From NCBI RefSeq assembly GCF_000331225.1, contig NZ_ANFY01000020.1:1-55803 (forward strand): a stretch of 55,803 nucleotides of DNA, written 5' to 3'. Positions 4,798 through 21,182 of this stretch are shown one piece after another. The position numbers and the translations under genes are program-made. Within the stretch, counting starts at the first letter, position 1; every line of letters starts with the position of its first letter. Source of the DNA: Sandarakinorhabdus sp. AAP62. GTDB lineage: Bacteria > Pseudomonadota > Alphaproteobacteria > Sphingomonadales > Sphingomonadaceae. The notes under the pieces are model-generated. The model worked only from the letters and a program-made list of their open reading frames with translations. It had not been told where the DNA came from and searched no databases.

Positions 4798-5427
4798 ATG
4801 ACGCCGATTGCGCCCGCCCTGCAGGCCGAAACCGAACGCCTTGCACACCTTGCCGCCGATTATGACGGGCTGGTGGCAAAGCTGGCAGCCCTGGGCGCTG
4901 GCCGGCGGGCGCCGCAGGTGGGGCAGCACTTCCCCGGCTTTGCCTTGCCGGATGCCGCCGGGCGCTTTCACACCCTGGCCGAACTGCTGGCGCCTGGAAC
5001 GCCCTTGGTGATCAGCTTCCATCGCGGCCTGTGGTGCCCCTGGTGCCGGGTCGAAAGTGCGGCGTGGGGTGATGCCGCCGAAGCATTGGCGGCAGCCGGC
5101 TCGCGCCTGATCACGATTTCCGCCGAACTGGCCGGGCAGGGCACTGCCCTTGCGACACGCGCCGGCGGACTTGGGCTGGTCGACGTCGATCTGGGCCTGT
5201 GCCTGGCCCTGGGGCTGGTGATCAGCATTCCGGCCGAACTGGCAGCGACCTACCGCGAGGGCGGTGATGATCTGGCGGCGCTGTTTGGCGGCAGCGGGCG
5301 CCTGCTGCCGATTCCGGCCACCTATCTGCTCGATGGCGGCGGGGTGGTGCGTTTTGCCTTCGTCGATCCCGATTTCCGTCGCCGGGCCGAACCGGCGGCC
5401 GTGATCGCCGCGCTGGGCTCAGCCTGA
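4798..5427 (+). CDS. Peroxiredoxin-like (AhpC/TSA) family protein
   Basis: 209 residues from the ATG at 4798; the in-frame extension upstream overlaps the ndh promoter and looks non-coding. A thioredoxin fold is indicated by VGQHFPGFALPDAAGR and the redox motif RGLWCPWCRVE with Cys80 and Cys83. A CxxC rather than a single peroxidatic Cys is typical of the 'peroxiredoxin-like' AhpC/TSA branch. It likely reduces peroxides or acts as a thiol oxidoreductase in the cytoplasm (no signal peptide). It is divergent from ndh and convergent with the LysR gene, whose 3' end it overlaps by 9 bp. Confidence 0.8.
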   Translation: MTPIAPALQAETERLAHLAADYDGLVAKLAALGAGRRAPQVGQHFPGFALPDAAGRFHTLAELLAPGTPLVISFHRGLWCPWCRVESAAWGDAAEALAAAGSRLITISAELAGQGTALATRAGGLGLVDVDLGLCLALGLVISIPAELAATYREGGDDLAALFGGSGRLLPIPATYLLDGGGVVRFAFVDPDFRRRAEPAAVIAALGSA

Positions 5428-6297: not shown

Positions 6298-6406
6298 GAC
6301 GCTGTTCATCCTAACATTGTTGCAACGCACCACAAGGGGTGTGGGCCGGTCATAGCCTGCCGGCATCAAACCCATGCACCCTTCATGGCTGTGCCTTCTG
6401 TGCATC

Positions 6407-6426
6407 CCCGGCGACAGTAAGCCGGG
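6407..6426 (+). other. Short hairpin in the ECF sigma leader
   Basis: CCCGGC (6407-6412) pairs with GCCGGG (6421-6426) around an 8-nt loop, ending 5 nt before the GGAGG ribosome site (6432-6436) of the sigma gene. A role in translation is possible but unproven. Confidence 0.3.
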
Positions 6427-6443
6427 TGATTGGAGGGCAGTCC

Positions 6444-7001
6444 ATGACCAGACAGGTAAGAACAGGTGCTGCGGTCGCTGCGGCACGGCCAGACATGACC
6501 GCACATTGGTCGGGGCTGATCGAACGCGGGCGCAGCGGCGACCGGCGCGCCTATGACACGTTGATGGCCGAAGCCAGGCTGTGGCTGGCGCGCTATTTCC
6601 GGCGGCGCCTGCCGATGGCCCATGTCGAGGATGCGGTGCAGGAAACGCTGATCGCGCTGCATCACCGCCGGCATGATTTCGATTGCACGCAGCCGCTGCG
6701 GCCCTGGCTTGCCGCCATTGCCCGCTTCAAATGGGTTGATCGGCTGCGGGCGATGGAGCGCGAGCAATTGCTGCCGCCGATGGACAGTTTTTCGGCCAGC
6801 CACGAAATCGATGTCGTCAGTTGCCATGCCGTGCGCGGCCTGCTTGGCCGTTTGCGGCCGGCCCAGGCCGATGCCATCCGCCTGGTCAAGATCGATGGAA
6901 TGTCGATCGTCGAGGCCTCTGCGGCCAGCGGGCAGTCGGAATCGCTGGTCAAGATCAACATCCACCGCGGCCTGAAGCGACTGGCCTGCGAATTGGTCTA
7001 G
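6444..7001 (+). CDS. ECF RNA polymerase sigma factor, SigF/ECF16-like
   Basis: 185 residues from the ATG at 6444, which follows GGAGG with good spacing. Sigma region 2 is visible (HVEDAVQETLIALHHRRHDFD, then LAAIARFKWVDRLR), and region 4 ends the protein (GMSIVEASAASGQSESLVKINIHRG, split here). The 'ALHxRRHxxD' segment is what I associate with the Caulobacter SigF group. These sigma factors are usually paired with a membrane anti-sigma factor (NrsF, DUF1109). None follows here; the next gene is the TonB receptor. The TGTAACC-N16-CGAA elements upstream of the bufferin and ndh operons are its likely targets. No copy precedes its own gene. Confidence 0.88.
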   Translation: MTRQVRTGAAVAAARPDMTAHWSGLIERGRSGDRRAYDTLMAEARLWLARYFRRRLPMAHVEDAVQETLIALHHRRHDFDCTQPLRPWLAAIARFKWVDRLRAMEREQLLPPMDSFSASHEIDVVSCHAVRGLLGRLRPAQADAIRLVKIDGMSIVEASAASGQSESLVKINIHRGLKRLACELV

Positions 7002-7130
7002 GCCGCCAATCCTCCCCCCTCAGGGCGGCCGGTCACCATCCCCGCCTGATCATTGTGCTCCAGCTCCCAAGGCAGTGTGCTTTCGGGAGCACAATGCATT
7101 CGTTTCGCGCTGGGCGTTTGTGACAGAAGC

Positions 7131-7136
7131 TTGACT
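7131..7136 (+). promoter_or_regulatory. Possible -35 element (TTGACT) before the TonB receptor gene
   Basis: TTGACT is immediately 5' of the first AACGTT operator, but no good -10 is visible 16-18 nt downstream, so the assignment is weak. If right, the operator at 7139-7150 would sit inside the promoter and bound repressor would block polymerase. Confidence 0.3.
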
Positions 7137-7138
7137 AC

Positions 7139-7150
7139 GAGAACGTTCTC
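7139..7150. promoter_or_regulatory. LacI-type operator 1 (GAGAACGTTCTC)
   Basis: Perfect 12-bp palindrome with the central CG expected of LacI-family operators. It lies 83 bp before the receptor start and 30 bp (centre to centre) from operator 2. The likely binder is the LacI-family protein encoded at 15090. Confidence 0.7.
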
Positions 7151-7168
7151 ATTTACCGAATCTCGATA

Positions 7169-7180
7169 GTGAACGTTCAC
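7169..7180. promoter_or_regulatory. LacI-type operator 2 (GTGAACGTTCAC)
   Basis: Second perfect 12-bp palindrome with the same AACGTT core, about three helical turns from operator 1, so both sites face nearly the same side of the DNA. This allows cooperative binding. Confidence 0.7.
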
Positions 7181-7232
7181 AACCGCCGCAAATCATAGCG
7201 TCGGATGAGCGATCTGGGGGAGAGAATCGCTG

Positions 7233-10220
7233 ATGATCATGTCGTTACGTCCGGCTATGGGCCGTTTCATGGTTGGTGCTTCCGTGCTGGCCCTTGGTGT
7301 TGCTGCGCAGCCAGTGATGGCGCAGGCGCAAACGGCTGCGGCCGCCGACGCCGGTGACGAGGAGATGATCGTCGTCTCCGGGATTCGGGCCAGCTTGCAG
7401 AAATCATTGAGCGTCAAGCGTGATGCCTTGGGTGTCGTCGACGCCATCTCGGCCGAAGATATCGGCAAATTCCCCGACACCAACCTCGCCGAATCGCTGC
7501 AGCGCATCACCGGCGTGTCGATCGACCGTCAGAACGGCGAAGGTTCGAAGGTCACGGTTCGCGGCTTCGGCCCCGATTTCAACCTGGTGCTGCTGAACGG
7601 CCGCCAGATGCCGGCTTCGGGCCTGGGCAGCTGCTGCGAAGCGCCGGCCTCGCGCAGCTTCGATTTTGCCAACCTCGCCGCCGAAGGCATTGCCGGCGTG
7701 CAGGTGTACAAGTCGGGCCGCGCCACGCTGCAGACCGGCGGTATCGGTTCGGTCATCAACATCCAGACCCCGCGTCCGCTTGATCGCCCCGGTTTCAAGG
7801 GCAGCATCTCGGTCAAGGGCATGATCGACCATACCTTCCAGGACACCAAGGTGACCCCGGAAGTGTCGGGCATCCTGTCCAAGACCTTTGCCGATGATCG
7901 CGTCGGCATCCTCGTCACCGGCATCTATCAGCGCCGCAAGGCGAGCCTGGCGCAGTTCAACGCCGGCTGGCGCGAAGGCTATCTGGGCAATGAAAACAAC
8001 TGGGGCTCGCTGCCGGTTGATGCCAATGATTGGCGCGGCAATTTCGCCAAGACGCAGAACCGTCCGGGTCCGAATGATACCTATCAGGTGACCCAGAACG
8101 CCGGTTATGATTTCACCGATATCGATCGTGAACGCATCAACGGCCAGGTCGTGCTGCAGGTGAAGCCCACCGACACGCTGAACATGGTGTTGGACTATAC
8201 CTATTCGCAGAACACCATCGATGCGCGCACCAACAGCATCGGCGTGTGGTTCAACCACAACAACACCAGCAGCAGCTGGACCAATGGTCCGGCCGCTGGC
8301 CCCAATTTCTATGCCGAGGATTTCGGCGCGGGCGAAGGCAAGGACCTCGCCATCACCGGGGCGCTGGCTGCCAATCGCAACATCAACAAATCGCTGGGCG
8401 GCAACATCAAGTGGGATGGTCCCGGCGGCCTGCGTGTCGAACTTGATGCCCATCATTCGACCGCGGAAAGCAAGCCGACGTCGCCCTTTGGCAGCAACAG
8501 CGCCGTCGGCAGTGCCATTTACGGTGTGGCCAGCCAGAAGGTGGATTTCACGACCGAAATGCCGGTGATTTCCGTTGCCCTGAACCCGGGTGTGAACTTC
8601 GCGGCCAGCAGCATCCGCCCGGCCGGCAACAGCTTCCGCAATGCCTATATGAAGGACACCATCAACGAGGTGTCGCTGCGCGGCGGTTATGATTTCGAAT
8701 CCGATCTCATCGACAGCCTCGATTTCGGCGTGACCTACACCGAGAACAAGGTGCGTTCGGCCTTCAACGTCATCCAGAACGACAGCTGGGGTGGCACGCT
8801 CAGTGCGGCCGACACGCCGGATTCGCTCTACACCATCACGGGCCTGCCGGACCGGCTGCAGGGCATGAACGGCAGCCAGGCGCCGGGCATCATCCCCAAC
8901 TATTTCCAGGTTGATACGGCGGCGCTGGTTGGCTTGCTGCAGAGCCGGCTCGGCATCTGCAACGCCAGCACGGTGCAGGGCGCCTGCCTTGCCAGCTTCA
9001 GCGCGCCCGGCGCCACCGATCGCCGCATCACCGAAGAAACCTGGGCGCCCTATATCCAGTCGACCCACAAGTTCGATCTGGGGGATATGCGCGCCAACGT
9101 GCGGCTCGGCCTGCGCTATGAAAAGACGCGCATCAACTCGACGGCCCTGGTGCCGGTGCCAACCGGCGTCGTCTGGGTGGCCGATAACGAAATGAGCCTG
9201 GTTGGCGGCAATGCCTCCTCGTTCAACACCCTGCGCGGTGAGTATGACAACTGGCTGCCGGCCTTCGATTTCGATCTGGCACCGGTGGACAGCATTCGTC
9301 TGCGCGCATCGTACAGCCACACCGTCACCCGTCCGGATTACACCAGCATGCAGGGCGGCATCACGGTCGCCCAGCCGCTGCGACCCAATGGCGGCAGCAC
9401 GGCCAGCAGCGGCAATCCCGGTCTGCTGCCGTACAAATCGAAGAACATCGATCTGTCGGCGGAGTGGTATTACGGCAGGGACAGCTATGTTTCGGTGGGC
9501 TTCTTCCACAAGAACGTGAGCAACTTCATTGCCAACACCACTACCCAGGGGCCGCTGTTTGATCTGCCCAACCCGGCGCAGGGCGCCGCGGTGCAGGCAG
9601 CGCGGGCGGCGCTGGGCGGCAACCCCAACTTCGCTGCCATTCTTGGTTGGCTGGCCGTGAACCGCCCCAGCGTGGTGCGCTTCAACAATGGCGTTGCCGA
9701 TGGCATCATCGGTCAGGCGGCCGATCCCGACGTGGTGTTCACCGTCACCCAACCGGGCAACAGTGCCCAGGTGGCCAAGCTGCATGGCTTCGAATTCGCC
9801 GTTCAGCACAGCTTCTGGGACACCGGTATTGGCGTCATCCTGAACTACACCATCGTCAACAGCGACACGAGCTTCGACAACACGCTGCGCTACACCGCCA
9901 CCCAATTCGCGGTGAACGGGGTCAGCGACAGCGCCAACGCCGTGCTCTACTACGACAAGAACGGCATCCAGGCCCGTGTTGCCTACAACTGGCGTGATGG
10001 CTTCCTGTCAGGCTATGGCTTCGATCCCTTCTATGTTGATCCTTATGGCCAGTTCGACGTTTCGGCCTCGTGGGAATTCAAGAAGGGCCTGACCGCCTTT
10101 GTTGAAGGCATCAACATCACCAATGCTGATCGCCGCGGCCACATGCGCAACGATCAGACGGTGTTCTTCGCAGCGCCAGGTTATGCCCGCTACACGGCAG
10201 GGGTGCGCTTCAGCTTCTGA
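7233..10220 (+). CDS. TonB-dependent outer-membrane receptor (carbohydrate-type)
   Basis: 995 residues. A signal peptide (hydrophobic GASVLALGVAA, cut near VMAQAQ) is followed by the linker EEMIVVSGIRASLQKSLSVKR. Next is the plug domain (KFPDTNLAESLQRITGVSIDR, KVTVRGFGPDFNLVLLNGRQMP, GIGSVINIQTPRP) and a long beta-barrel ending in a C-terminal Phe (TAGVRFSF), the outer-membrane insertion signal. The IRASLQKSL-type N-terminus is typical of Caulobacter/sphingomonad receptors that import oligosaccharides. Two LacI-type operators precede the gene and sugar genes follow, so the substrate is probably a glycan rather than a siderophore. A Cys pair (GSCCEAP) in the plug is unusual. Confidence 0.93.
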   Translation: MIMSLRPAMGRFMVGASVLALGVAAQPVMAQAQTAAAADAGDEEMIVVSGIRASLQKSLSVKRDALGVVDAISAEDIGKFPDTNLAESLQRITGVSIDRQNGEGSKVTVRGFGPDFNLVLLNGRQMPASGLGSCCEAPASRSFDFANLAAEGIAGVQVYKSGRATLQTGGIGSVINIQTPRPLDRPGFKGSISVKGMIDHTFQDTKVTPEVSGILSKTFADDRVGILVTGIYQRRKASLAQFNAGWREGYLGNENNWGSLPVDANDWRGNFAKTQNRPGPNDTYQVTQNAGYDFTDIDRERINGQVVLQVKPTDTLNMVLDYTYSQNTIDARTNSIGVWFNHNNTSSSWTNGPAAGPNFYAEDFGAGEGKDLAITGALAANRNINKSLGGNIKWDGPGGLRVELDAHHSTAESKPTSPFGSNSAVGSAIYGVASQKVDFTTEMPVISVALNPGVNFAASSIRPAGNSFRNAYMKDTINEVSLRGGYDFESDLIDSLDFGVTYTENKVRSAFNVIQNDSWGGTLSAADTPDSLYTITGLPDRLQGMNGSQAPGIIPNYFQVDTAALVGLLQSRLGICNASTVQGACLASFSAPGATDRRITEETWAPYIQSTHKFDLGDMRANVRLGLRYEKTRINSTALVPVPTGVVWVADNEMSLVGGNASSFNTLRGEYDNWLPAFDFDLAPVDSIRLRASYSHTVTRPDYTSMQGGITVAQPLRPNGGSTASSGNPGLLPYKSKNIDLSAEWYYGRDSYVSVGFFHKNVSNFIANTTTQGPLFDLPNPAQGAAVQAARAALGGNPNFAAILGWLAVNRPSVVRFNNGVADGIIGQAADPDVVFTVTQPGNSAQVAKLHGFEFAVQHSFWDTGIGVILNYTIVNSDTSFDNTLRYTATQFAVNGVSDSANAVLYYDKNGIQARVAYNWRDGFLSGYGFDPFYVDPYGQFDVSASWEFKKGLTAFVEGINITNADRRGHMRNDQTVFFAAPGYARYTAGVRFSF

Positions 10221-10245
10221 CCGGGTCACCGGCCGGGTCGCAGGG

Positions 10246-10281
10246 AGAGCCGCGCGCGTAAGCGTTGCGGCTCTTCTTCTG
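10246..10281 (+). terminator. Hairpin with T-rich tail after the receptor gene (attenuator-like)
   Basis: AGAGCCGC (10246-10253) pairs with GCGGCTCT (10267-10274), with extra CGC/GCG pairing inside, and is followed by TCTTCTG. It lies 25 bp after the receptor stop and before the halogenase ribosome site. It probably stops most transcripts while letting some read into the halogenase operon. Confidence 0.5.
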
Positions 10282-10315
10282 CTCTGCCAGTGTCTGCCTG
10301 TGGGAGAGAGAGTGC

Positions 10316-11833
10316 GTGAGGGCTGAACAGCCATTTCAGGTGGTGATCGTCGGCGGCGGCAGCGCGGGCTGGCTCACGGCCTGTGTGCTGGCGGCGCGGC
10401 ATCCGGGCCTCGCCATCACCCTGGTGGAATCACCCGATATCCCGACCATCGGCGTGGGCGAGGGCACCTGGCCGACCATGCGCGAAACGCTGGCCGGCAT
10501 CGGCATTTCCGAAGCGGAATTCCTTGTCGCCTGCGATGCCTCGTTCAAACAGGGATCGCGCTTTGATGGCTGGCGCACGGGGGAGGCGGGGGACTCCTAT
10601 CTCCACCCCTTCACCCTGCCACCGCCCGGCGACATGGCGGCACTGCTCCATGCATGGTCTGCGACCGGCAGCGGTTTTGCCGAGGCCATGACGGCACAAG
10701 CCGCCGCCTGTGCCCAGCATCTGGCGCCGCGCCAGCGCGGCATGCCGGATTATGCCGGGGCGCTGAACTACGCCTATCATTTCGACGCCGGCAAATTCGC
10801 CCGGCTGCTCACCCGCCACGCCACGCAAGCCCTGGGGGTGGCCCACATTGCCGCCAATGTCACGGCCACCACGGCAGCGGCCAACGGCGATGTGGCGACG
10901 CTGGTGCTGGCTGATGGGCGCGCGCTGACAGCGGACCTGTTCATCGATTGCACCGGTCAGGCGGCGCGGCTCATCAATGGCCATTGTCAGGTGGAATGGA
11001 TCGACCGGTCAGACGTGTCGTTCAACGATCGCGCCCTGGCTGTACAGGTGCCGGTGCTGCCCGGCAGCCCGGTCGCTTCGCAGACCATCGGCACCGCCCA
11101 CCACGCCGGCTGGCTCTGGGATATCGCACTGCCCACCCGGCGCGGCATCGGCTGCGTCTATGCTTCGCGTTTCATGCGTGATGACGAAGCCGATGACGTG
11201 CTGCGCGCGCACGTTGCCGCGCAGGTGCCGGGGGCAGATGTCACCGCACTGGCCCCGCGCAAGCTCAGCTTTGCCACCGGCCACCGGGCGCGCTTCTGGC
11301 AGGGCAATGTGGTTGCCGTTGGCCTTTCGGCGGGTTTTATCGAGCCACTGGAAGCGTCTGCCATTGTGCTGATCGAACTTTCGGCCCGGGCGCTGGCCGA
11401 TGCCTTGCCGGCCAGCCGCGATGCGATGGCGGTGCATGCCGCGCGCTTCAACGAGATGTTCCGCACCCGCTGGGATCGGATCGTCAATTTCCTCAAGCTG
11501 CACTATGTGCTGAGCCGCCGGACCGAACCTTATTGGCTGGCGCAGCGCGATCCGGCCACCATCCCGCAGCGCCTTGCCGATGATCTGGTCCTCTGGCGCG
11601 AGCATCCGCCATCGGCCCGCGATTTCCCGCTGCACGACGAGATGTTTCCGGCGGCCAGCCAGGCCTATGTGCTTTATGGCATGGGCCATGGCTTGCCGCT
11701 CCCGCCGCCTGCCGCCGCCATCACCGCCGCCGCTGCCCGGCTTGCCGAAGTACAGGACCGGGCCCGCCGCATGGCTGCCGGTCTCCCCGAAAACCGGACC
11801 TATCTTGCCGCCATCGCGGCCCAGGCCGCTTGA
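10316..11833 (+). CDS. Flavin-dependent tryptophan-halogenase-family protein (first copy)
   Basis: 505 residues from a GTG at 10316, chosen because GGGAGAGAG (10302-10310) is well placed. FAD site [12 protein letters not shown] is at residues 11-22. Lys78 (SFKQGSRF) matches the catalytic Lys of tryptophan halogenases, and GFIEPLEAS lies near residue 335. The diagnostic WxWxIP motif is altered to WLWDIALP (266-273), so chlorination of free tryptophan is doubtful. It starts an operon with sapC, cupin, a second halogenase, LacI and MFS. Such halogenase homologues are common beside TonB receptors in sphingomonads and Caulobacter; their true substrate is not known to me. Confidence 0.85.
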
Positions 11834-11841
11834 GGAACGCC

Positions 11842-12558
11842 ATGTCCAACCACCAGATCCTCACCCACGACGCCCATGCCGATCTGCGGGTGCTGGCGCA
11901 GCCCGGCGCGGCGCTCGGCGATGCGGTGATGGCCTGCATCACCGTGCCGGCCGAATTTCGCCGCCTCGCCATCGATTATCCCATCCTGTTTCGGCAGGAT
12001 GAAGCCACCGGGGCCTTTTCGGCGCTGGTGCTGATGGGCTTTGAACCGGGCGAGAATCTCTTTCTTGATGGCGACCGTTGGGATGCCACCAACCGCCCGC
12101 TGGCGCTGGCGGTGCAGCCGTTCCTGGTTGGCCGCAGCCGGACGAGCGACGGGCCGGGGCAGGTGCATATCGATATGGACCACCCCCGCATTTCCCGGAA
12201 TGGCGAGGGCATCAAATTGTTCGAGCCGGGCGGCCAGCCGACGCCTTATCTCGAACAGATTGCCGACATGCTGGGCGCGCTCGACGCTGGCTACCGCGCC
12301 AGTGGTGACTATTTCGCCGCGCTCATCCGTTATGACCTGATCGAACCCTTTTCGATGGACGTGACCCTGGAGAGTGGCGCCATGCATCGGCTGGTGGGCT
12401 ATCACCTGGTAAACGAGGAAAAACTGGCGGCGCTGGAGCCGGGCGCGCTGGCCGAACTTCACGCCGAAGGCCATCTGCTCCCTACCTACATGGCGCTGGC
12501 ATCGCTGGGCAATCTGGCGCGACTGGTGGGCGCCAAGAACCGGCGGGATCATGGCTGA
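11842..12558 (+). CDS. SapC-family protein
   Basis: 238 residues; ATG at 11842 follows GAGGA (11832-11836) that overlaps the halogenase stop. The SapC pattern is present: ACITVPAEFRRLAIDYPILF, FSALVLMGFEPGENLFLD and PLALAVQPFLVG. The name comes from Campylobacter S-layer genes, but SapC-like proteins in alphaproteobacteria occur inside TonB-receptor/sugar loci and have no demonstrated function that I know of. No signal peptide or membrane segment is visible, so it is probably cytoplasmic. It overlaps the cupin gene by 8 bp. Confidence 0.85.
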   Translation: MSNHQILTHDAHADLRVLAQPGAALGDAVMACITVPAEFRRLAIDYPILFRQDEATGAFSALVLMGFEPGENLFLDGDRWDATNRPLALAVQPFLVGRSRTSDGPGQVHIDMDHPRISRNGEGIKLFEPGGQPTPYLEQIADMLGALDAGYRASGDYFAALIRYDLIEPFSMDVTLESGAMHRLVGYHLVNEEKLAALEPGALAELHAEGHLLPTYMALASLGNLARLVGAKNRRDHG

Positions 12559-13564
12559 CGCTGCGCTGCTGGAGCGGCTGCCGCGCGTGGCCGAGGAGAA
12601 AATGGCGCCGGATGCGCTGGCGCAGCGCGTCACTTGTGCCACCGGGCCGTTCGTGGTGCGCGGGCTGGCGGCGGATTGGCCGCTGGTGGAGGCGGGCCGC
12701 AGGGGCGCCGGTGTCGCGCGGGACTGGCTGGCGGCCCATGCCCGCAACCGCGCCTTTCCGGCCAGCATCGGGGCTGATGATCGCCTGTTCTATGATGCGG
12801 CGATGGCGATGAACTTTCGCATGGAGATGGCCCCGCTGCCGCAGTGGCTGGCGGCGATGGCGGCGGCCGAAACCGATCCCGCAGCGCCCACCGTCTATCT
12901 GTCCTCCATCGACATGGGCGATTATTTCACCGGCCTCGCCGAAAGCCACGCCCTGCCCCTGGGCGCGCGCCAGCCGATCGCCAGCATCTGGATCGGCAAC
13001 CGCACCTGCATTGCCGCCCACAACGACATTCCCGAAAATATCGCCGTCTGCGCCGTCGGGCGCCGCCGCTTCACCCTCTTCCCGCCCGATCAGTTCGCCA
13101 ATCTCTATCTGGGCCCGCTGGAAAATACCCCGGCCGGCCGCCAGGTCAGCATGGTTGACGTGCGGGCGCCCGATCTGGCGCGCTACCCGCGTTTTGCCGA
13201 GGCGTTGCGCCACGCGCAGGTGGCGGAACTGGAGCCGGGCGATGCGATTTTCGTGCCGTCGCTGTGGTGGCATCATGTTGAAGGCTTGGCGGCCTTCAAT
13301 GTGCTGATCAACTTCTGGTGGCGCGATGTGCCGCGCTGGCTTGGCAATCCCGAAGATGCCCTGCTGCATGCCATCCTGGCCGTGCGCGACCTGCCGCCGC
13401 AGCAGCGCGCGCAGTGGCAGGCCTTGTTTGATCATCATGTGTTTGCCGCGGATGATATGGTCACCGCCCATCTGCCTGACGGCGCCCGCGGAATATTGGC
13501 GCCGCTGGACGCCACCACCGCCGGCCAGATCAAGGCCCGTTTGTTGAGAGGATTGTCGCGATGA
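12551..13564 (+). CDS. Cupin-like/JmjC-type oxygenase-like protein
   Basis: 337 residues. The double-stranded beta-helix of cupin_8/JmjC proteins is indicated by IASIWIGNRTCIAAHNDIPEN (an HxD iron-ligand pair), VGRRRFTLFPPDQFANLYLGP and PSLWWHHVEGLAAFNVLINFWW (the distal His). With an HxD...H triad it could be a 2-oxoglutarate/Fe(II) oxygenase, but the substrate is unknown. The start overlaps sapC by 8 bp and the end overlaps halogenase 2 by 4 bp, so it is tightly co-translated with both. Proteins of this type regularly accompany TonB receptors and halogenase homologues in this bacterial group. Confidence 0.83.
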   Translation: MADAALLERLPRVAEEKMAPDALAQRVTCATGPFVVRGLAADWPLVEAGRRGAGVARDWLAAHARNRAFPASIGADDRLFYDAAMAMNFRMEMAPLPQWLAAMAAAETDPAAPTVYLSSIDMGDYFTGLAESHALPLGARQPIASIWIGNRTCIAAHNDIPENIAVCAVGRRRFTLFPPDQFANLYLGPLENTPAGRQVSMVDVRAPDLARYPRFAEALRHAQVAELEPGDAIFVPSLWWHHVEGLAAFNVLINFWWRDVPRWLGNPEDALLHAILAVRDLPPQQRAQWQALFDHHVFAADDMVTAHLPDGARGILAPLDATTAGQIKARLLRGLSR

Positions 13565-15072
13565 ATGCCAAGCCACTGAGGGTCGTGGTTGCAGGTGGCG
13601 GCACGGGCGGCTGGATGGCCGCCGCGGCGCTGGCGCACACGCTGGGGCCGGTGATCGATCTGACCCTGGTGGAATCCGATGCCATCGGCACCATCGGCGT
13701 GGGCGAAAGCACCATTCCGCCGATCGTGCTGTTCAATCGTCTGCTCGGCATCAATGAAGCCGAGTTCATGCGCGCCACCCAGGCCACCTTCAAGCTGGGC
13801 ATCATGTTCGAAAACTGGCGTGATGTGGGCCATAAATATTTCCACAGCTTTGGCAGCACCGGCAAGGATCACTGGTCGGCCGGCTTCCAGCATTTCTGGC
13901 TGCATGGGCAAACGCAGGGCCACGACGCGCCCTATGATGATTATGCGCTGGAACTGCAGGCGGCAATGCAATCGAAGTTTGCCCATCTGCCCGATGACCG
14001 GCTGAACTATGCCTATCAGCTCGACAGCGCCCTTTATGCCGCCTTCCTGCGCAAGCGCGCCGAGGCTGGCGGGGCAAGGCGCATCGAAGGCCGCATCAGC
14101 GCCGTCGAACTGGATGGCGAGAGCGGCGACATCGCCGCGCTTTGCCTTGATGGTGATCGCCGCATCGAAGGCGATCTGTTCATCGATTGCACCGGTTTCC
14201 GCGCCCTGCTGATCGAAGGCGCACTGCACGCCGGCTTTGATGACTGGACCAACTGGCTGCCCTGCGACAGCGCCATCGCCATCCAGACGGCAAGCGTGCG
14301 CCCTGCCGTGCCCTATACCCGCGCCATCGCCCATGATGCCGGCTGGCAGTGGCGCATCCCGCTGCAGCACCGGCAAGGCAATGGCATCGTCTATTGCAGC
14401 CGCTATCTGAGCCAGGAGGCCGCGCAGGAACGCCTGTTCGCCACCATCGAGGGCGAGAAGCTGGTGAAGCCCAACATCATCAGTTACCGCACAGGGGTGC
14501 GCCGCAAGCAGTGGCACCGCAATTGCGTCGCGGTCGGCCTGTCTGGCGGATTCATGGAGCCGCTGGAATCGACCTCCATCCACCTGATCCAGCGCGCCGT
14601 GCTGCGCATCTGCCGCATGCTGCCCGCCGGCAAGGTGAGCGAGCGCGACCGCGCCGAATTCAACGAGCAGATGTTCACCGACATGGAGCAGATCCGCGAT
14701 TTCCTGATCCTGCACTACAAGGTGACCCAGCGCCGCGACAGCCCGTTCTGGCGCCAGATGGCGAGCATGGAAATCCCCGACAGCCTTGCCCACAAGATCG
14801 AACTGTTCCGCGAAACGGCTCGCGTCTTCCGCAAGAATGAAGAGCTTTTCGTGGAAAACAGCTGGGTGCAGGTGATGATGGGGCAGGGGATCGTGCCGCA
14901 GAGCCATCACCCCGTCGCGGCCAAGCTGCGCCCGGAAGAGCTGAAGGCCTTCCTGGGTGGCCTGCGCGACAGCGTGACAAAAACGGTGGCCGGCCTGCCT
15001 GACCATCACGCCTATGTCGCGCGCTATTGCGGTGCTACCGATGCGGCGGCGCAGGCGCATAAAGCCGCGTGA
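13561..15072 (+). CDS. Flavin-dependent tryptophan-halogenase-family protein (second copy)
   Basis: 503 residues. FAD site VAGGGTGGWMAA is at residues 10-21, Lys78 in ATFKLGIMF matches the catalytic Lys, and the full WxWxIP motif is present (WQWRIP, 262-267). GLSGGFMEPLEST follows near residue 327. By motif it is therefore the better-preserved halogenase of the two. The ATG overlaps the cupin stop (ATGA). No NRPS, PKS or other natural-product gene is nearby. The locus is a sugar-uptake cluster, so function as a classical tryptophan halogenase is not assumed. Confidence 0.88.
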   Translation: MNAKPLRVVVAGGGTGGWMAAAALAHTLGPVIDLTLVESDAIGTIGVGESTIPPIVLFNRLLGINEAEFMRATQATFKLGIMFENWRDVGHKYFHSFGSTGKDHWSAGFQHFWLHGQTQGHDAPYDDYALELQAAMQSKFAHLPDDRLNYAYQLDSALYAAFLRKRAEAGGARRIEGRISAVELDGESGDIAALCLDGDRRIEGDLFIDCTGFRALLIEGALHAGFDDWTNWLPCDSAIAIQTASVRPAVPYTRAIAHDAGWQWRIPLQHRQGNGIVYCSRYLSQEAAQERLFATIEGEKLVKPNIISYRTGVRRKQWHRNCVAVGLSGGFMEPLESTSIHLIQRAVLRICRMLPAGKVSERDRAEFNEQMFTDMEQIRDFLILHYKVTQRRDSPFWRQMASMEIPDSLAHKIELFRETARVFRKNEELFVENSWVQVMMGQGIVPQSHHPVAAKLRPEELKAFLGGLRDSVTKTVAGLPDHHAYVARYCGATDAAAQAHKAA

Positions 15073-15089: not shown

Positions 15090-16139
15090 ATGGCAAGACG
15101 TCGCCAGGCCGTGACGATCCGGCATGTCGCCGCCGAGGCAGACGTGTCGTTGCAGACCGTCAGCCGTGTCATCAACAACGAGCCCAATGTGCGCCCCGAA
15201 ACCAAGGAGCGCGTGCAGGCCGCCATCGACCGGCTGGGCTATGTGCCGTCCATCGCGGCCCAGCGCATGAGCGGCTCGCGATCCTATCTCATTCTCGCCA
15301 TCAACGATCGGGATCGCACCATCGCCGATTGGCAGGCGCGGCAGGGCACTGACTGGGTTGACCAGATGCTGCTGGGCGGCATGCTGAAATGTGCCGAGCA
15401 CGGCTATCGCATGATCTTTGAACTGGTCGACACGCACAGCGATCATGTCGAACGCGAACTGGCCGGTGCGATCGCCGCGCTGCAGCCCGACGGCATCATC
15501 CTGACCCCGCCGCACAGCGACAATCCGCAGATCGTTGCCTTCCTTGCCGAACAGGACATGCCGTTCGTCCGCATCGGATCCAAGCAACGTCAAGCTGGCA
15601 TTCCGGTCTCGATGGACGATGAAGGCTCGGCCCGCACCGCGACGCGCCACCTGATCGATCATGGCCACAGCAGGATCGGCTTCATCGCCGGTTCGAGCGA
15701 ATATGAACTGAGCGGCTGGCGCGTCGATGGCTGGCGCGCCGCGATGGCCGAAGCCGGGCTGGCGACCGATGGTCTGCTCGATGCCGGGGATTTCTCCTAT
15801 GATTCTGGCCGGACGGCGGCGCTGCGCCTGCTTGATCCGCCGCAGCGGCCGACCGCCATCATCGCCAGCAATGATCAGATGGCGATCGCCACACTGGACG
15901 TGGCGCGCGCGTTGGGGTTGGCCGTGCCGGACGATCTGTCGATCATCAGTTTCGACAATACGCCCGTTGTCCAGTTCGCCCAGCCGCCGCTGACCGCCAT
16001 CGATCAGTCGATTGCCGCCACGGCGTCCACCGCGGTCGAGCTGATCATTGCTTCGCTGAAGGGCGATCCGCTGCCGGAAACGCTGACCGTGGTGACATCC
16101 CGCCTGATCGAACGGTCATCGGTGGCCCGGCGTGGCTGA
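15090..16139 (+). CDS. LacI-family transcriptional regulator
   Basis: 349 residues with the canonical N-terminal helix-turn-helix and hinge (TIRHVAAEADVSLQTVSRVI, then LGYVPSIAAQRM). A periplasmic-binding-protein-like sugar domain follows, with ASNDQMAIATLDVARALG and DDLSIISFDNTPVVQFAQPPLTAI divided over its end. It lies inside the halogenase-to-MFS operon and is the only LacI protein in the window. It is thus the natural candidate to bind the AACGTT palindromes at 7139, 7169 and 17357. The effector is probably a mono- or disaccharide released from the imported glycan. Confidence 0.92.
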   Translation: MARRRQAVTIRHVAAEADVSLQTVSRVINNEPNVRPETKERVQAAIDRLGYVPSIAAQRMSGSRSYLILAINDRDRTIADWQARQGTDWVDQMLLGGMLKCAEHGYRMIFELVDTHSDHVERELAGAIAALQPDGIILTPPHSDNPQIVAFLAEQDMPFVRIGSKQRQAGIPVSMDDEGSARTATRHLIDHGHSRIGFIAGSSEYELSGWRVDGWRAAMAEAGLATDGLLDAGDFSYDSGRTAALRLLDPPQRPTAIIASNDQMAIATLDVARALGLAVPDDLSIISFDNTPVVQFAQPPLTAIDQSIAATASTAVELIIASLKGDPLPETLTVVTSRLIERSSVARRG

Positions 16140-17304
16140 CGCGGTCGCGCCGCGCCGCTTCCTGCTGCTCTATGCACTGGCCTGGGCGGGCGCGGCGATT
16201 GCCTATGTGCCGTTCCTGACCATCCTGTTGCCGGTGAAGGTCGAAGGCCTGGCGGGCACAAGCGTGGGCGTCGACTGGCTGGCCTGGCTCAGTTTTGGCG
16301 GGGCGATGGCGGCCAGTGCCGGCCATCTCCTGTTTGGCTGGCTCAGTGACCTGAGCGGCCGGCGGCGGCCATGGATTGCCGCCGGATTGTTGCTGTCGTG
16401 CCTGCTGCTGCTGGCGATGGGGCAGGCAAACAGCCTCGACATGCTGCTGGTGCTGATCGTTGCCTGGCAATTGGCGCTCAACATGATGATGGCGCCGCTG
16501 GCAGCGCTGGCCGGGGACCATGTGCCCGACGACCAGAAGGGCTTGCTCGGCGGGCTGCTGGCGTTCGCGCCGGGCCTGGGTGCGCTGTCGGGCGCGCTGG
16601 TCACCTGGCCGGATCTGATGTCGCCGCAGGGCCGGCTGGCGCTGGTGGCGGCGCTGGTGGCCGGCACGGTGCTGCCGATCCTGTTGTTGCCGCTGCCGGG
16701 GCGAACCGATCCGGCGCCGCTGGCCAAGCCCGCGCCGCCACTGCACCCTGCCGCCACAGTGCGCCGGATGTGGCTGGCCCGTCTGGCCCTGCAGATCGCC
16801 GAAGCGACCCTGTTTGCCTATCTCTATTTCTGGTTCGTGGCGGTCGATGCCGACATGACCGACAATCGTGTCGCTGGGGTGTTTGCTGCCGCGCTGGTGG
16901 TCTCGGCACCTGTGACGCTGGCAGCCGGACGCTGGGCCGATCGGCATGGCCAGCCGTTCCGGCCGCTGGTGCTGGCGGCCCTTGGCGCGTTCGTCGGGCT
17001 GGTCGCGATGGCGCTGGCGCAGGGACTGGTGGCAGCAGCGGCGGCTTTTGCGCTGTTTTCGCTGGCCTCGGCAGTGTTTCTGGCGCTGCACAGCGCCCAG
17101 ACGCTGCGTGTGCTGCCACGGCCGGACCGGCGCGGACGTGACCTTGGCCTGTTCAATCTCACCAACACCATCCCGTCGCTGATCATGCCGTGGATCACCG
17201 TTGGCCTGGTGCCGCGCTTCGGTTTTTCCGGGCTGTTCGCGGCGCTTGCGGTCTTGTGCCTGACGAGTGCTCTTGTGCTGGCCAGCCTGTCGCGCCGGGA
17301 CTGA
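16132..17304 (+). CDS. MFS transporter (sugar/cation symporter-like)
   Basis: 390 residues with about 12 hydrophobic helices and the loop 2-3 signature GWLSDLSGRRRPWI. The GTG start at 16132 overlaps the LacI stop by 8 bp, so it is co-translated with the regulator. Charged, polar loops and the DLSGRRRPW motif resemble GPH/MFS sugar transporters. Placed between a LacI regulator and a periplasmic GH3 enzyme, it likely carries the oligosaccharide or the released sugar across the inner membrane. The exact substrate is not visible. Confidence 0.82.
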   Translation: MADAVAPRRFLLLYALAWAGAAIAYVPFLTILLPVKVEGLAGTSVGVDWLAWLSFGGAMAASAGHLLFGWLSDLSGRRRPWIAAGLLLSCLLLLAMGQANSLDMLLVLIVAWQLALNMMMAPLAALAGDHVPDDQKGLLGGLLAFAPGLGALSGALVTWPDLMSPQGRLALVAALVAGTVLPILLLPLPGRTDPAPLAKPAPPLHPAATVRRMWLARLALQIAEATLFAYLYFWFVAVDADMTDNRVAGVFAAALVVSAPVTLAAGRWADRHGQPFRPLVLAALGAFVGLVAMALAQGLVAAAAAFALFSLASAVFLALHSAQTLRVLPRPDRRGRDLGLFNLTNTIPSLIMPWITVGLVPRFGFSGLFAALAVLCLTSALVLASLSRRD

Positions 17305-17356: not shown

Positions 17357-17368
17357 GAGAACGTTCAC
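17357..17368. promoter_or_regulatory. LacI-type operator 3 (GAGAACGTTCAC)
   Basis: Hybrid of operators 1 and 2: left half GAGAAC as in 7139, right half GTTCAC as in 7169. It lies 140 bp before the GH3 gene in the 192-bp interval after the MFS gene. A small CAACAT/ATGTTG repeat (17368-17385) abuts it. A weak TTGATT (17328-17333) upstream could be a -35. Confidence 0.65.
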
Positions 17369-17496
17369 AACATCTCACGATGTTGGTGAAGGCAGTGCGA
17401 ACACGTGCTGCTTGCGAGTGGAACCGGGTGCCGATGGCACCCATCCCGCCAGCATCTGGCAACAGGGTGCAGCGGGAGCCGGGGCAGGGGATGGCA

Positions 17497-19890
17497 ATGA
17501 AGAAGGCGCGCTGGCTGATGGGCCTGATCGTGCTGGCAGTGGCAGTACCACAGGCCGCACAAGCCGATCCGCAGGCGTGGCCTGCCACGCGCAGCCCGGC
17601 CGCGCTCACCGATCCGGCCACCGAAGCGCGCATCACCGCCCTCATCCAGCGGATGACGCTGCGCCAGAAGGTCGGCCAGCTGATTCAGGCCGATATCACC
17701 GCCATCCAGCCGAGCGATCTCAAGCGCTATCCGCTGGGTTCGATCCTCGCCGGCGGCAATGGCGGCCCTTATGGCAATGAACGCGCCGATGCCGCGACCT
17801 GGGTGAAGCTGGTCAGCGAATTTCGCGCCATGTCGCGCCGGTCGGGTGCCGGCATCCCGATCCTGTTTGGCGTCGATGCCGTGCACGGCCACAGCAATCT
17901 GCCAGGGGCGACCATCTTCCCGCACAATATCGGCCTGGGCGCTGCCCATGATCCCGAATTGCTGCAACGCATTGGTGCCGTGACCGCCGCCGAACTGTCG
18001 GGCAGCGGCATCGACTGGACGTTCGCGCCCACGCTCGCTGTGCCGCAGGATCTGCGCTGGGGTCGCAGCTATGAAGGCTATTCGGCGCAGCCGTCGCTGA
18101 TCGCGGCCTATGCCCGGGCGCTCACGCTTGGCCTGCAGGGGCCGCTCCAGGCCGGCACGCCGCTGCCGGCCAACAAGGTGGCTGCCACGGCCAAGCATTT
18201 CGTTGCCGATGGCGGCACCGAAGGCGGCAAGGATCAGGGCGATGCCCGCATCAGCGAAGCCGAACTGGTCGCCGTGCATGCGGCTGGTTATGCGCCGGCG
18301 GTGGAAAGTGGCGTTCTGGCCGTGATGGCCAGTTTCTCCAGCTGGAACGGCGCCAAGGCGCACGGCAACCAGTATCTGCTCACCGATGTCCTCAAGGGGC
18401 GCATGGGTTTCGAAGGCCTGGTGGTGGGGGATTGGAATGGCCACGGCCAGATCCCCGGCTGCACGCCCACCGATTGCCCGCACACCATCAATGCCGGGCT
18501 CGACCTGGTGATGGCGCCCGACAGTTGGAAGGGCCTGTTCGACAGCACGCTGCGCCACGCCCGCCGCGGCACCATCAAGCCGGCCCGCATCGATGATGCC
18601 GTGCGCCGCGTGCTGCGCGTGAAGGCGCAGCTGGGCCTGCTCGACGCCGCGCCGATGGAGCGTGGTGACCCGTCGCGCATCGGCGTGCCGGATCATCTCG
18701 AAGTTGCCCGCGAAGCCGTGGCCAAATCTTTGGTGCTGCTGAAGAACAATGATGGCGTGCTGCCGGTTCGGCCCGGCGCGCGCGTGCTGATTGCTGGCCC
18801 CGGTGCCGACAATATGGCGATGCAGAGCGGCGGCTGGACGGTGACCTGGCAGGGCACCGACACCAGCGCGGCGGATTTCCCCAAGGGCCAGACCATTGGT
18901 CGTGCGATCGCCGCCGCCGTGCGCGACGCTGGCGGCGAAGCGGTGATTGCCAGCGATGGCGCCGCACCCGGCAAGCCCGATGTGGCCATCGTGGTGTTTG
19001 GTGAGCAGCCTTATGCCGAATTCCAGGGCGATGTGCCCGATCTGGCCTTCCGGACGCTGGCCGGCGAGGCCGAGCTGATTGCCCGGTTGAAGGCGCAGGG
19101 CACCAAAGTGGTTTCCGTCTTCCTGTCGGGGCGGCCGCTGTTCGTGCCGAAACTGATCAATGCCTCTGATGCCTTTGTCGCGGCCTGGCTGCCGGGTTCG
19201 CAAGGGCAGGGTGTGGCCGATGTGCTGGTGGCGCGCCGCGACGGCACGCCGGCCCGCGATTTCACCGGCCGCTTGCCCTTTGCCTGGCCGGCTGACGCCC
19301 GCTCGCCGGTGGCCTCGCCTGTGCTGCCGGTGGGCCATGGTTTGAATTACCGCACCGCTGTCACTGTTGGCAGCCTCAGCGAGGATCCGAAAATGGATCT
19401 GGCGGCGGTGGCCAGCGAAGACAGTTACATGCTGCGCGGCAAGATCCTCGATCCCTGGCGCCTGGGTGTGGATAGCGTCGTGACCGCCCGCGCCGTCGAT
19501 ATTTCGGCCCAGGAAGATGCGCGCCAGTTCCGCTGGACAGCGCCCGGCGCCATTGCCATCGATGGTCCGCCGGTCAGCCTGTCCCGCCAGGGCACCGGCG
19601 GCTTTGCCCTGCAGCTGGATTGGCGCATCGATGCGCTGGCCACGGGCCCGGTGCGGCTCAGCCTGGGCGGCGCGACGCTTGATATCAGCGCTGCGCTGCG
19701 CGCCTTGCCGCAAGGGCAACCGGCCAAGCTGGAGATTCCGCTGGCCTGTTTTGCGGCGGCCGGGGCCGATCTTGCGCATGTTGGCACACCGCTGCGCTTG
19801 GCAGCACCGCGTGGATTTGCCATGAGTTTGCGCACGGCCCGTCTAAGCCAACCCTTGCCGCTTCCGGCCTGCCCGCCAGCAGCGCCCTGA
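17497..19890 (+). CDS. Periplasmic glycoside hydrolase family 3 (beta-glucosidase/exo-glucanase type)
   Basis: 797 residues from the ATG at 17497 (AGGGG six nt upstream; 17491 is the alternative). A signal peptide (RWLMGLIVLAVAVPQAAQA) indicates export. GH3 N-domain motifs: VGQLIQADI, PILFGVDAVHGH, WGRSYEGY and KHFVADGGTEGG, with the nucleophile Asp312 in LVVGDWNGHG. The C-domain has KSLVLLKNNDGVLPV and GRLPFAWP. The extra C-terminal ~130 residues fit the ExoP-type galactose-binding domain of glucan glucohydrolases. It has its own LacI-type operator and precedes a FucP-type symporter, so it probably releases glucose from beta-glucans or beta-glucosides. Confidence 0.9.
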   Translation: MKKARWLMGLIVLAVAVPQAAQADPQAWPATRSPAALTDPATEARITALIQRMTLRQKVGQLIQADITAIQPSDLKRYPLGSILAGGNGGPYGNERADAATWVKLVSEFRAMSRRSGAGIPILFGVDAVHGHSNLPGATIFPHNIGLGAAHDPELLQRIGAVTAAELSGSGIDWTFAPTLAVPQDLRWGRSYEGYSAQPSLIAAYARALTLGLQGPLQAGTPLPANKVAATAKHFVADGGTEGGKDQGDARISEAELVAVHAAGYAPAVESGVLAVMASFSSWNGAKAHGNQYLLTDVLKGRMGFEGLVVGDWNGHGQIPGCTPTDCPHTINAGLDLVMAPDSWKGLFDSTLRHARRGTIKPARIDDAVRRVLRVKAQLGLLDAAPMERGDPSRIGVPDHLEVAREAVAKSLVLLKNNDGVLPVRPGARVLIAGPGADNMAMQSGGWTVTWQGTDTSAADFPKGQTIGRAIAAAVRDAGGEAVIASDGAAPGKPDVAIVVFGEQPYAEFQGDVPDLAFRTLAGEAELIARLKAQGTKVVSVFLSGRPLFVPKLINASDAFVAAWLPGSQGQGVADVLVARRDGTPARDFTGRLPFAWPADARSPVASPVLPVGHGLNYRTAVTVGSLSEDPKMDLAAVASEDSYMLRGKILDPWRLGVDSVVTARAVDISAQEDARQFRWTAPGAIAIDGPPVSLSRQGTGGFALQLDWRIDALATGPVRLSLGGATLDISAALRALPQGQPAKLEIPLACFAAAGADLAHVGTPLRLAAPRGFAMSLRTARLSQPLPLPACPPAAP

Positions 19891-19907: not shown

Positions 19908-21182
19908 ATGGCCGCACCCTCTGTCACTGCTGATCGCCCGGTGGCCGGCCATGTCGAAGCGCCGCGCCTGCAGGTCTTCGTGCTGGCGCTGTTCTTCATC
20001 TTCGGCGGCATCACCAGCCTGAACGACGTCATCATTCCCAAGCTGAAGGAGCTTTTCACCCTCAGCTACACCCAGGCCATGCTGGTGCAGGTATGCTTTT
20101 TCGCCGCCTATGCCGTGATCGGCATTCCGGCAGCGAAACTGGTCAAGCGCGTCGGCTACATGCGCGGCGCGGTGACCGGGCTGGCGCTGATGATGATCGG
20201 CTGCCTGATGTTCATTCCGGCCAGCAGCACCGCCACCTATGGCCTGTTCCTTGCCGCTCTGTTCGTGCTGGCCAGCGGCGTGGTGATCGTGCAAGTGGTC
20301 GCCAACCCGTTGATTTCCATGCTCGGCAAGCCGGAAACCACGCACAGCCGGCTGACCTTCGCGCAGGCCTTCAACTCGCTGGGCACGACGATCTTTCCCT
20401 ATTTCGGCGCCATCCTGATCCTGGGGGCGCTGGCCAGCCAGTCGGCGGGCGAATTGTCGGGCGCAGCGCTGGATGCCTATCGCACCGCCGGCAGCCAGGC
20501 CATTGTCAACGGCTATCTCGGCTTGGCCGTGGCGCTGGCAGTGGTCGCCGGTGTCGTCTGGCTCTTCCGCAATGCCCTGCCGGCCGAACAGCATGAAGCC
20601 AGCGCTGGCCTCGCCGGGCTCGATCTGCTCGGCCAGCGTCGTTTCGGCTTCGGCGCGCTGTGCATCTTCCTTTATGTTGGCGCCGAAGTGTCGATCGGCT
20701 CGCTGATCGTTTCCTATCTTGGTCAGGCGCAGGTGATGGGCCTGGCCGAACAACAGGCCGGCAAGCTGATTGGCCTCTATTGGGGCGGTGCCATGGTGGG
20801 CCGCTTCATCGGTTCGGCGCTGCTGCGACTGGTGGCGCCGGGCCGCTTGCTGGCGCTGGTCGCGGTCGGGGCCATGGTGCTGATCACGATATCCACCCAG
20901 ACGACGGGTGATGTGTCGGGCTACAGCCTGCTGGCCATCGGGCTGATGAATGCCATCATGTTCCCCACCATCTTCAGCCTGGCTTGCGAAGGCCTTGGCG
21001 CACGTGCCGCCGATGGTTCGGGGATCATCAATGTCGCCATTGTCGGCGGCGCGGTGGTGCCGCTGCTCACCGGCATGCTGGTCGATGCCAGCGGCAGCCT
21101 CGCGCTGGGCCTGGCCTTGCCGGCCGCCTGCTATGGCGTGATTGCCTGTTTTGGCTGGTTCACGGCCGAACAGCCGGCCTGA
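19908..21182 (+). CDS. FucP/GluP-type sugar:proton symporter (MFS)
   Basis: 424 residues, about 12 membrane helices. The opening LQVFVLALFFIFGGITSLND, then TQAMLVQVCFFAAYAV, and VVQVVANPLISMLG-like segment with RLTFAQAFNSLGT are the hallmark of the FucP family (L-fucose, glucose/galactose symporters). It begins 17 bp after the GH3 stop and so shares its operator-controlled transcript. It probably imports the glucose or related hexose set free by the GH3 enzyme. It converges with the TauE/SafE gene, leaving only 3 bp between their ends. Confidence 0.88.
   Translation: MAAPSVTADRPVAGHVEAPRLQVFVLALFFIFGGITSLNDVIIPKLKELFTLSYTQAMLVQVCFFAAYAVIGIPAAKLVKRVGYMRGAVTGLALMMIGCLMFIPASSTATYGLFLAALFVLASGVVIVQVVANPLISMLGKPETTHSRLTFAQAFNSLGTTIFPYFGAILILGALASQSAGELSGAALDAYRTAGSQAIVNGYLGLAVALAVVAGVVWLFRNALPAEQHEASAGLAGLDLLGQRRFGFGALCIFLYVGAEVSIGSLIVSYLGQAQVMGLAEQQAGKLIGLYWGGAMVGRFIGSALLRLVAPGRLLALVAVGAMVLITISTQTTGDVSGYSLLAIGLMNAIMFPTIFSLACEGLGARAADGSGIINVAIVGGAVVPLLTGMLVDASGSLALGLALPAACYGVIACFGWFTAEQPA

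Follow-up and report, generated by a model that had tools for sequence, protein, structure and literature searches.

A halogenase-SapC-cupin gene cassette beside a TonB-dependent receptor suggests that a bacterium chemically modifies its own sugar receptor

Contig 20 of the 3.13-Mb assembly of Sandarakinorhabdus sp. AAP62 carries a compact cassette of four genes directly behind the gene for a sugar receptor, and the possible role of that cassette is the subject of this report. The whole 55,803-nt stretch analysed is called the window; receptor and cassette together fill its positions 7233 to 15072, all on the + strand. The first gene (7233..10220, +) encodes a TonB-dependent receptor of 995 residues (TIGR01782, 617 bits), the proposed substrate of the cassette. 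It is followed by Hal1, a flavin-dependent halogenase homologue (10316..11833, +; PF04820, 397 bits; closest PDB entry 9ltb, 729 bits), which starts with GTG at 10316, 95 bp past the receptor; by SapC, a proposed adaptor or chaperone (11842..12558, +; PF07277, 205 bits against a cut-off of 28.9); by a cupin-8/JmjC protein akin to factor inhibiting HIF (FIH), a 2-oxoglutarate (2OG) iron oxygenase (12551..13564, +; PF13621, 206 bits); and by Hal2, a flavin-dependent halogenase of the Xcc4156/BrvH type (13561..15072, +; PF04820, 614 bits). The ATG of SapC at 11842 lies 8 bp past Hal1 and is preceded by GAGG, an in-frame TTG at 11830 being an alternative start that would give a 4-bp overlap with Hal1. 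The cupin overlaps SapC by 8 bp, and Hal2 overlaps the cupin by 4 bp. An original prediction made from this DNA had described four genes with overlaps of 4-8 bp or immediate ribosome sites, following a receptor and encoding two flavin halogenase homologues, an HxD...H cupin and SapC; both the spacing and the profile matches agree with it.

The properties of this locus suggest that the bacterium chemically modifies its own sugar receptor, and the system would then be of the kind in which an enzyme modifies a protein encoded beside it. More specifically, we give an even chance to the proposal that the cassette modifies its receptor before export, with Hal2 acting on Trp519 (W519; codon at 8787..8789, +). 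This interpretation rests on gene linkage, operator-like sites, retained catalytic residues, the association of W519 with Hal2, and the topology of a receptor model.

Linkage between the cassette and TonB-dependent receptors is extensive. The named loci are the 80 top matches, out of at least 586, from a search with the Hal2 profile. Seven are cut by contig ends; of the 73 with room for a receptor, 68 have one as their immediate upstream neighbour, in the same orientation. The recurrence beside such receptors claimed in the original prediction is confirmed by these loci, and it reaches beyond alphaproteobacteria into beta- and gammaproteobacteria. Sphingobium sp. RAC03 also carries the cassette, and Caulobacter vibrioides, used as a control genome, has SapC and PF04820 matches. 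Seventy-nine SapC loci were also compiled (the window, one other locus of the same genome and 77 from other genomes), the 20-kb loci being picked by hand from about 150 listed. A halogenase or cupin is present in 31 of them, and in 29 of these 31 a same-strand receptor directly adjoins upstream; the remaining two are a halogenase pair at the edge of the stretch read (L081) and a locus without a receptor (L091). Any receptor at all was found in 12 of 48 SapC-only loci and in 6 of 40 control windows, which were taken from these genomes at round coordinates. Of 75 PF04820 genes in 20 genomes of the family, at least 60 have a listed TIGR01782 receptor no more than 10 kb away, where at most 2.9 would be expected. 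As the receptors listed and the candidates scored per genome are a subset, this linkage is a lower bound; random placement relative to receptors, the outcome that would have spoken against the original prediction, was not found. All five PF04820 genes of the source genome are in an operon with a receptor or within 1.2 kb of one. Among 103 receptors, the gene order is Hal-SapC-Cupin-Hal in 54, SapC-Cupin-Hal in 29 and another arrangement in 20.

All three enzymes of the cassette look active, to judge from their conserved residues. Both halogenases score over the PF04820 cut-off and have the catalytic Lys and Glu and the WxW(xIP) motif, although the motif of Hal1 reads WLWDIA, so that WxW is present and WxWxIP is not. 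In Hal1-type proteins, K95, W283, W285 and E363 are conserved in 71 of 71 aligned sequences and E360 in 70 of 71 (numbered from the open reading frame start at 10265); in Hal2-type proteins, W262 is found in 110 of 110, E333 in 109 and K78 in 108. The cupin retains H157, D159, N163, R172 and H241 in 100 of 100 homologues, so that the HxD...H iron triad is invariant. Its closest solved relatives are FIH and JMJD5, the FIH match extending across the core (E 1e-18). The iron triad is common to the cupin and the FIH/JmjC hydroxylases; a difference is that Arg172 stands in place of FIH Lys214, by an alignment made by eye. No signal peptide was seen by eye on any of the four cassette proteins, so they should be cytoplasmic.

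The two halogenases belong to different branches of their family. The closest named relative of Hal2 is from Sandarakinorhabdus cyanobacteriorum (91% identical), and its best PDB matches are 6y1w (638 bits), which we take to be Xcc4156, 9luq (535 bits), which carries the name Trp halogenase, and 6frl (436 bits). Entries for Trp 5- and 6-halogenases, PrnA, RebH and a thermophilic Trp halogenase reach at most 291 bits. On these scores Hal2 is a member of the Xcc4156/BrvH subfamily, being closer to those enzymes than to Trp halogenases. Hal1 falls outside it: it scores 729 bits with 9ltb, 441 with 2pyx and 380 with 9lu2, but 219 with 6y1w; a search for papers from 2024 on naming 9LTB, 9LUQ, 9LU2 or 9LMG found none. 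The entry 6frl is BrvH, and in the part of the source that treats these enzymes, those of the Hal2 type are described as brominating indoles, not free tryptophan, and as having an open active site (PMC7336383). The same part reports a peptide substrate as proposed by others and the native substrates of BrvH and Xcc4156 as unknown in 2020. These two close homologues share the catalytic residues of Hal2, to which the present locus adds a gene context and a candidate residue.

The predicted structure of SapC (built from 65 sequences) has a mean predicted local distance difference test score (pLDDT) of 96.6, and it gave no match at E 0.001 against 350,542 PDB chains; the SapC sequence likewise gave nothing significant against the PDB (best E 0.04). 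A confident model without a PDB match points to a fold without a known match, as judged by one program. Of 299 genomes sampled from the phylum, 111 have a SapC gene, and we treat SapC as a wider family because the stretch read around it contains no halogenase or cupin in 48 of the 79 loci. A few SapC genes adjoin an RTX protein, a small receptor or a ShlB-type secretion protein, and 13 solo SapC genes come after a gene read from its sequence as a flavoenzyme. Our guess that SapC is a partner of exported proteins fits part of this context. A role as an S-layer component, suggested by the family name, was rejected in view of the 48 loci. Solo SapC genes also lie directly downstream of very large RTX-repeat or ShlB-type proteins (L098:1-9606, L107:10570-19899, L115:10379-12028). 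No paper on the SapC family was found in the open-licence literature, and the present analysis offers a testable role for it.

A pointer to a target comes from the receptors themselves, in which the presence of W519 appears to track that of Hal2. Of 89 receptors with a Hal2-type gene downstream, 88 have W519; of 11 cassette receptors that lack Hal2, two have it, and of 3 loci with halogenases that are hard to type, none. The two Hal2-lacking receptors with W519 are L127 and L250, the latter scored as lacking Hal2 although one lies upstream, and a locus with Hal1, SapC and cupin and no Hal2 (L129) has Phe at this position. In a four-group alignment, in which L061 and L009 are one receptor counted twice and near-copies occur among the rows (L253/L255), the frequency of W519 is 0.87 in cassette-linked receptors (n=108), 1.00 in receptors with a divergent halogenase (n=8; Hal2 on the opposite strand, 8/8) and 0.06 in non-linked TIGR01782 receptors (n=31; 2/31), and no other column distinguishes the two linked groups as well from the non-linked one. 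The 31 non-linked receptors were judged from 1.5-kb flanks in 20 cases and from 20-kb loci in 11, of which 6 lie near a cassette belonging to another receptor. W519 is one of two invariant Trp residues in an alignment of 48 cassette receptors, the residue after it in cassette rows is mostly G, S or N, and the linked groups average 13.9 and 13.9 Trp per protein as against 9.9 in the non-linked. A look for conserved Trp-rich patches in co-occurring receptors had been suggested; a conserved Trp was indeed found, as the single residue W519 rather than as a patch. The WG dipeptides of linked receptors cluster at 515-519 (79) and 255-259 (54). W257 at first seemed to go with Hal1 (0.85 of 55 against 0.26 of 31), but this link was not supported by a looser motif count (48/56 against 16/31) and a tree-pair test in which one incomplete row was dropped (2.1 same against 1.0 opposite).

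A separate sample consisted of 28 receptors from 27 regions of previously unused plasmid records, with halogenase status read from the plasmids only. W519 occurs in 11 of 14 Hal2-linked receptors and in none of the seven with Hal1 only or the seven with no halogenase, one of the Hal2-linked being L322, counted as such although its Hal2 gene reads as two pieces. Over all residues and all columns of the window receptor, W519 gave the best separation (0.79 against 0.00; next V156, 0.64 against 0.00). Plasmid matches left out of the sample were H45, H46, H48, H51, H52, H61-H64, H66, H68-H72, H74 and several halogenase matches. It had been recorded beforehand that H41-H43, which have Hal2, would carry W519 and that the Pseudoalteromonas receptors H47-H53 and H57, which have no halogenase, would not; all eight read agreed, five of them (H47, H49, H50, H53, H57) from the eight predicted to lack the Trp. 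The four closest relatives, Pseudoalteromonas receptors whose regions as read contain no halogenase, have QSTGGY, QTMSGF, QNTGGY and QNTGGY where linked receptors have NDTWGG or similar, so that T or M stands at 519, whereas W920 is kept. A pectin-type plasmid locus without a halogenase also lacks W519. In L322, a megaplasmid locus of Pseudoalteromonas shioyasakiensis, the Hal2-type gene lies in two overlapping pieces (10645-12133) and the receptor keeps W519.

Several observations weigh against the proposal that Hal2 acts on W519. On a tree of 102 receptors, built with the loop left out and with seven long-branch rows omitted from the test, the 6-8 independent pairs that differ in Hal2 were concordant in 2.8 cases and discordant in 0.0 (median p 0.25), and one of the omitted rows, N_L130_1437, has W519 without Hal2. 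Because independent pairs are few, shared descent could explain much of the association. The single Hal2-linked receptor of the 89 that lacks W519 is the contig-10 receptor of the source genome itself (L061), and L127, N_L270 and N_L130_1437 have Trp in the column with no Hal2 counted as theirs. Far receptors outside TIGR01782 (n=18) have Trp there at 0.39; at such a distance the loop cannot be aligned safely, and the value is still unfavourable. In the plasmid sample, the Hal2-linked receptors L341, L342 and L344 lack W519: the first two belong to alpha-glucan loci and have loops resembling that of the contig-10 receptor, and L344 has Arg at 519, where its near relative L337 has Trp. Placement of the Trp is also less safe in L335-L338, L343 and L346, whose receptors are distant; in the Hal1-only receptors L329 and L340 a Trp follows closely after the column (NNFWQAY); and the residues at 519 in receptors without Hal2 differ between two plasmid alignments, although Trp appears in neither. 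Finally, 5 of the 73 named loci have no upstream receptor, 4 of them being a lone Hal2.

The association is nevertheless specific to W519. An earlier tree of 81 rows gave pairs of 1.9 to 0.0 and raw counts of 40/41 against 4/40, and six other columns tracked Hal2 worse in the pair test, the best being W745 (1.6 to 0.4). W920, R124 and other Trp columns are commoner in linked receptors and were rejected because their pairs track Hal2 less or not at all (R124, 0.3 to 0.1; columns besides W745 and R124, more opposite than same), and W920 is kept by the Pseudoalteromonas receptors for which the region read lacks a halogenase. The presence of the enzyme appears to track a receptor residue, with strong counts and few independent events. 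It is because the association is clean and specific while the evolutionary events are few that we hold the proposal and its alternatives in even balance.

W519 probably sits on the outer face of the receptor. An AlphaFold model of the receptor (pLDDT 87.2, from 48 sequences) is recognized by Foldseek as a TonB-dependent receptor (E 3e-27 to 5fr8). In the model the barrel strand 495-517 ends two residues before W519, which stands at the beginning of the long segment 518-594. If the strands are counted from an N-terminus in the periplasm and the short turns are put on that same side, this segment falls outside the cell, and it is probably an extracellular loop. The receptor plug also has a Cys-Cys pair (GSCCEAP; window 7632-7637).

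The cassette and its receptor lie within what is likely to be one LacI regulon, together with the repressor, two transporters and a glycosidase. A LacI-family regulator (15090..16139, +) starts 17 bp past Hal2 and is followed by an MFS transporter (16132..17304, +), a GH3 beta-glucosidase-like enzyme with an ExoP C-terminal domain (17380..19890, +) and a glucose/galactose-type MFS transporter (19908..21182, +; TIGR01272 gluP, over cut-off). The palindrome GWGAACGTTCWC, allowing one mismatch, occurs at 7139, 7169 and 17357, with 0.13 expected in the window. Two of these LacI-type operator-like sites are upstream of the receptor (7139-7150, GAGAACGTTCTC; 7169-7180, GTGAACGTTCAC) and the third is upstream of the GH3 gene (17357..17368), so that they mark two promoters only. 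Exact copies are confined to these three positions in the whole assembly, and a reversed control pattern has none. From their position and symmetry we infer that the neighbouring LacI protein binds them, and the placement of the cassette inside a sugar regulon, as originally proposed, is supported through these sites. The CUT loci of Xanthomonas, which serve carbohydrate utilisation and contain TonB-dependent transporters, likewise combine a receptor, a regulator, an inner-membrane transporter and a degrading enzyme, as described in part of PMC3826837. The words halogenase and SapC are absent from the main text of a paper on those loci (PMC1790865).

Further along the window, a PALP enzyme and trpA lie at 27966-30004, about 13 kb downstream of the cassette and outside the regulon, followed by a carboxyl-transferase (ACC-type) gene and a Mur-ligase-domain gene; all of these are probably housekeeping genes. 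TamB- and Omp85-type genes, an outer-membrane assembly pair, occupy 35434-41738.

The sugars to which the partner genes point vary widely. Among 92 proteins flanking the 28 named loci scanned (at most 4 per locus, of 280-1000 residues; 25 of 90 families listed), the families include GH3 (12), MFS_1 (12), MFS_2 (8), LacI (6), GH1 (4), GH16 (3), GH9 (2) and GH17 (2), and plasmid loci with a halogenase and a receptor carry genes for beta-glucan or beta-glucoside, galactoside, xylan, arabinan or cellulose, fucose, alpha-glucan, and sucrose or fructan. The cassette therefore appears to follow the receptor, or receptor family, and not one glycan. The original prediction had left open whether the receptor, another surface protein or an imported glycan or aryl glycoside is modified; the evidence favours the receptor and does not support the glycan and aryl-glycoside variant. 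Added to the known chemistry of Hal2 relatives, the partner receptor, the exposed Trp that co-varies with Hal2 and the lack of an evident shared aromatic nutrient make modification of the receptor by Hal2 the preferred interpretation.

If so, the pathway might run as follows. The receptor would be made in the cytoplasm as an unfolded precursor, to which SapC would bind. Hal2 would take FADH2 from a general flavin reductase, none being encoded in the locus, together with halide, and would halogenate Trp519 at the foot of the probable extracellular loop, as the covariation suggests. The FIH-like cupin would hydroxylate a side chain and Hal1 would act on another residue, whereupon the receptor would be exported and inserted with its modified Trp at the surface-exposed mouth. 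A bolder version is that these are dedicated protein-halogenation cassettes, in which SapC, with its unseen fold, hands the nascent receptor to a halogenase that brominates or chlorinates W519, while the second halogenase and the FIH-like hydroxylase act at further sites; the modification would tune glycan binding or hide the receptor from phages and bacteriocins that exploit it, and would be the native role of BrvH and Xcc4156. We regard this version as less likely than not and put it forward tentatively.

Other interpretations must be weighed against receptor modification. W519 could be an ordinary sugar-binding Trp of some receptor clades, with the cassette acting on a co-travelling imported aromatic or signalling molecule. 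In its favour, sugar-binding sites are often lined by aromatic residues, the linked receptors fall into a handful of clades, and the number of independent pairs is small; yet W519 persists in most loci while the sugars differ, and the Pseudoalteromonas relatives beside GH16 genes, with no halogenase in the region, have kept W920 and lack W519, so we consider this reading rather doubtful. The cassette might instead modify an imported aryl glycoside, or a plant or algal phenolic released by the glycosidases, since halogenases need electron-rich aromatics and the GH3 and MFS genes adjoin the cassette. Two BD-FAE and two DLH matches among the 92 flanking proteins, alpha/beta-hydrolase families open to a ring-degradation reading, and a fumarylacetoacetate hydrolase family gene in one plasmid locus point the same way. 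However, the 25 listed of the 90 flank families include no clear ring-degradation family, and Hal2-type genes are also found in fucose, alpha-glucan and sucrose/fructan loci, which makes such a substrate improbable. Free tryptophan was rejected as a substrate, because trpA and PALP are outside the regulon and because the kin enzymes do not halogenate it, according to the part of PMC7336383 that treats them.

A protein target need not be the receptor, nor need the reaction be halogenation. QhpG and LodB serve quinone-cofactor proteins, and QhpG hydroxylates a Trp of its partner protein. Each is a flavin enzyme encoded beside the protein it matures, and Hal1 and Hal2 have weak matches to QhpG, a monooxygenase family (39.5 and 28.7 bits, both far under the cut-off of 240); the match to LodB is likewise weak and far under its cut-off. 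Hal1 and Hal2 might accordingly be flavin monooxygenases that oxidize receptor Trp in vivo, a reading whose target overlaps with that of Hal2-mediated halogenation; we find it quite improbable, as the Lys, Glu and WxW residues of halogenases are kept and Xcc4156 and BrvH are described as brominating indoles in part of PMC7336383. Least probable, in our estimate, is that the cassette modifies another surface or secreted protein, with SapC a general partner of exported proteins. The 48 SapC loci without halogenase or cupin would fit this, as would the few SapC genes that adjoin an RTX protein, a small receptor or a ShlB-type secretion protein; but of the 31 loci with a halogenase or cupin, 29 have a receptor next to the set on its upstream side, no systematic search having been made for another conserved surface protein.

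Variants of the cassette were also encountered. At L346:6355-9407 and L343:7201-9401, a putative 2OG-Fe(II) oxygenase or a DUF6445 protein replaces SapC and cupin between the receptor and a Hal2-type gene, and other proteins may thus substitute within the cassette. The set is split in L329, L331 and L340, with SapC and cupin divergent from the receptor, a Hal1-type gene downstream and no Trp in the W519 column; L331 and L340 lie beside xylan-type enzymes and L329 is without annotation. Multi-halogenase arrays occur near a receptor at L335 (a Niveispirillum plasmid, 4919-11055), G347:C1:1607572-1616971 and G312:C11:107604-114825, with one member much diverged, and the L335 array is divergent from its receptor. 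The receptor loops of L335 and L273 have two W-G motifs a few residues apart.

Xanthomonas work on N-acetylglucosamine and xylan loci reportedly mentions such genes. In the open-licence literature, no function for this gene set was found, nor any paper combining halogenase, SapC and TonB; papers naming both tryptophan halogenase and TonB-dependent receptor had nothing on their linkage in the portions available, and a word search of a 2025 review of peptide halogenation (PMC12615548) found neither TonB nor SapC. A parallel to receptor halogenation is offered by MibH and other Trp halogenases of ribosomally synthesized and post-translationally modified peptides, which would act alike in attacking a Trp of an adjacently encoded ribosomal product, whereas the target here would be a 995-residue outer-membrane receptor. 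Xcc4156 shares only 26% identity with MibH and groups apart from it, in the comparison given in part of PMC7336383. Proof of receptor halogenation would exceed the known kind of co-encoded-protein modification. If the proposal is correct, the natural target of these enzymes would be a protein, which would make them protein halogenases, and bacteria would post-translationally halogenate their nutrient receptors, a new layer of control on sugar uptake and receptor recognition.

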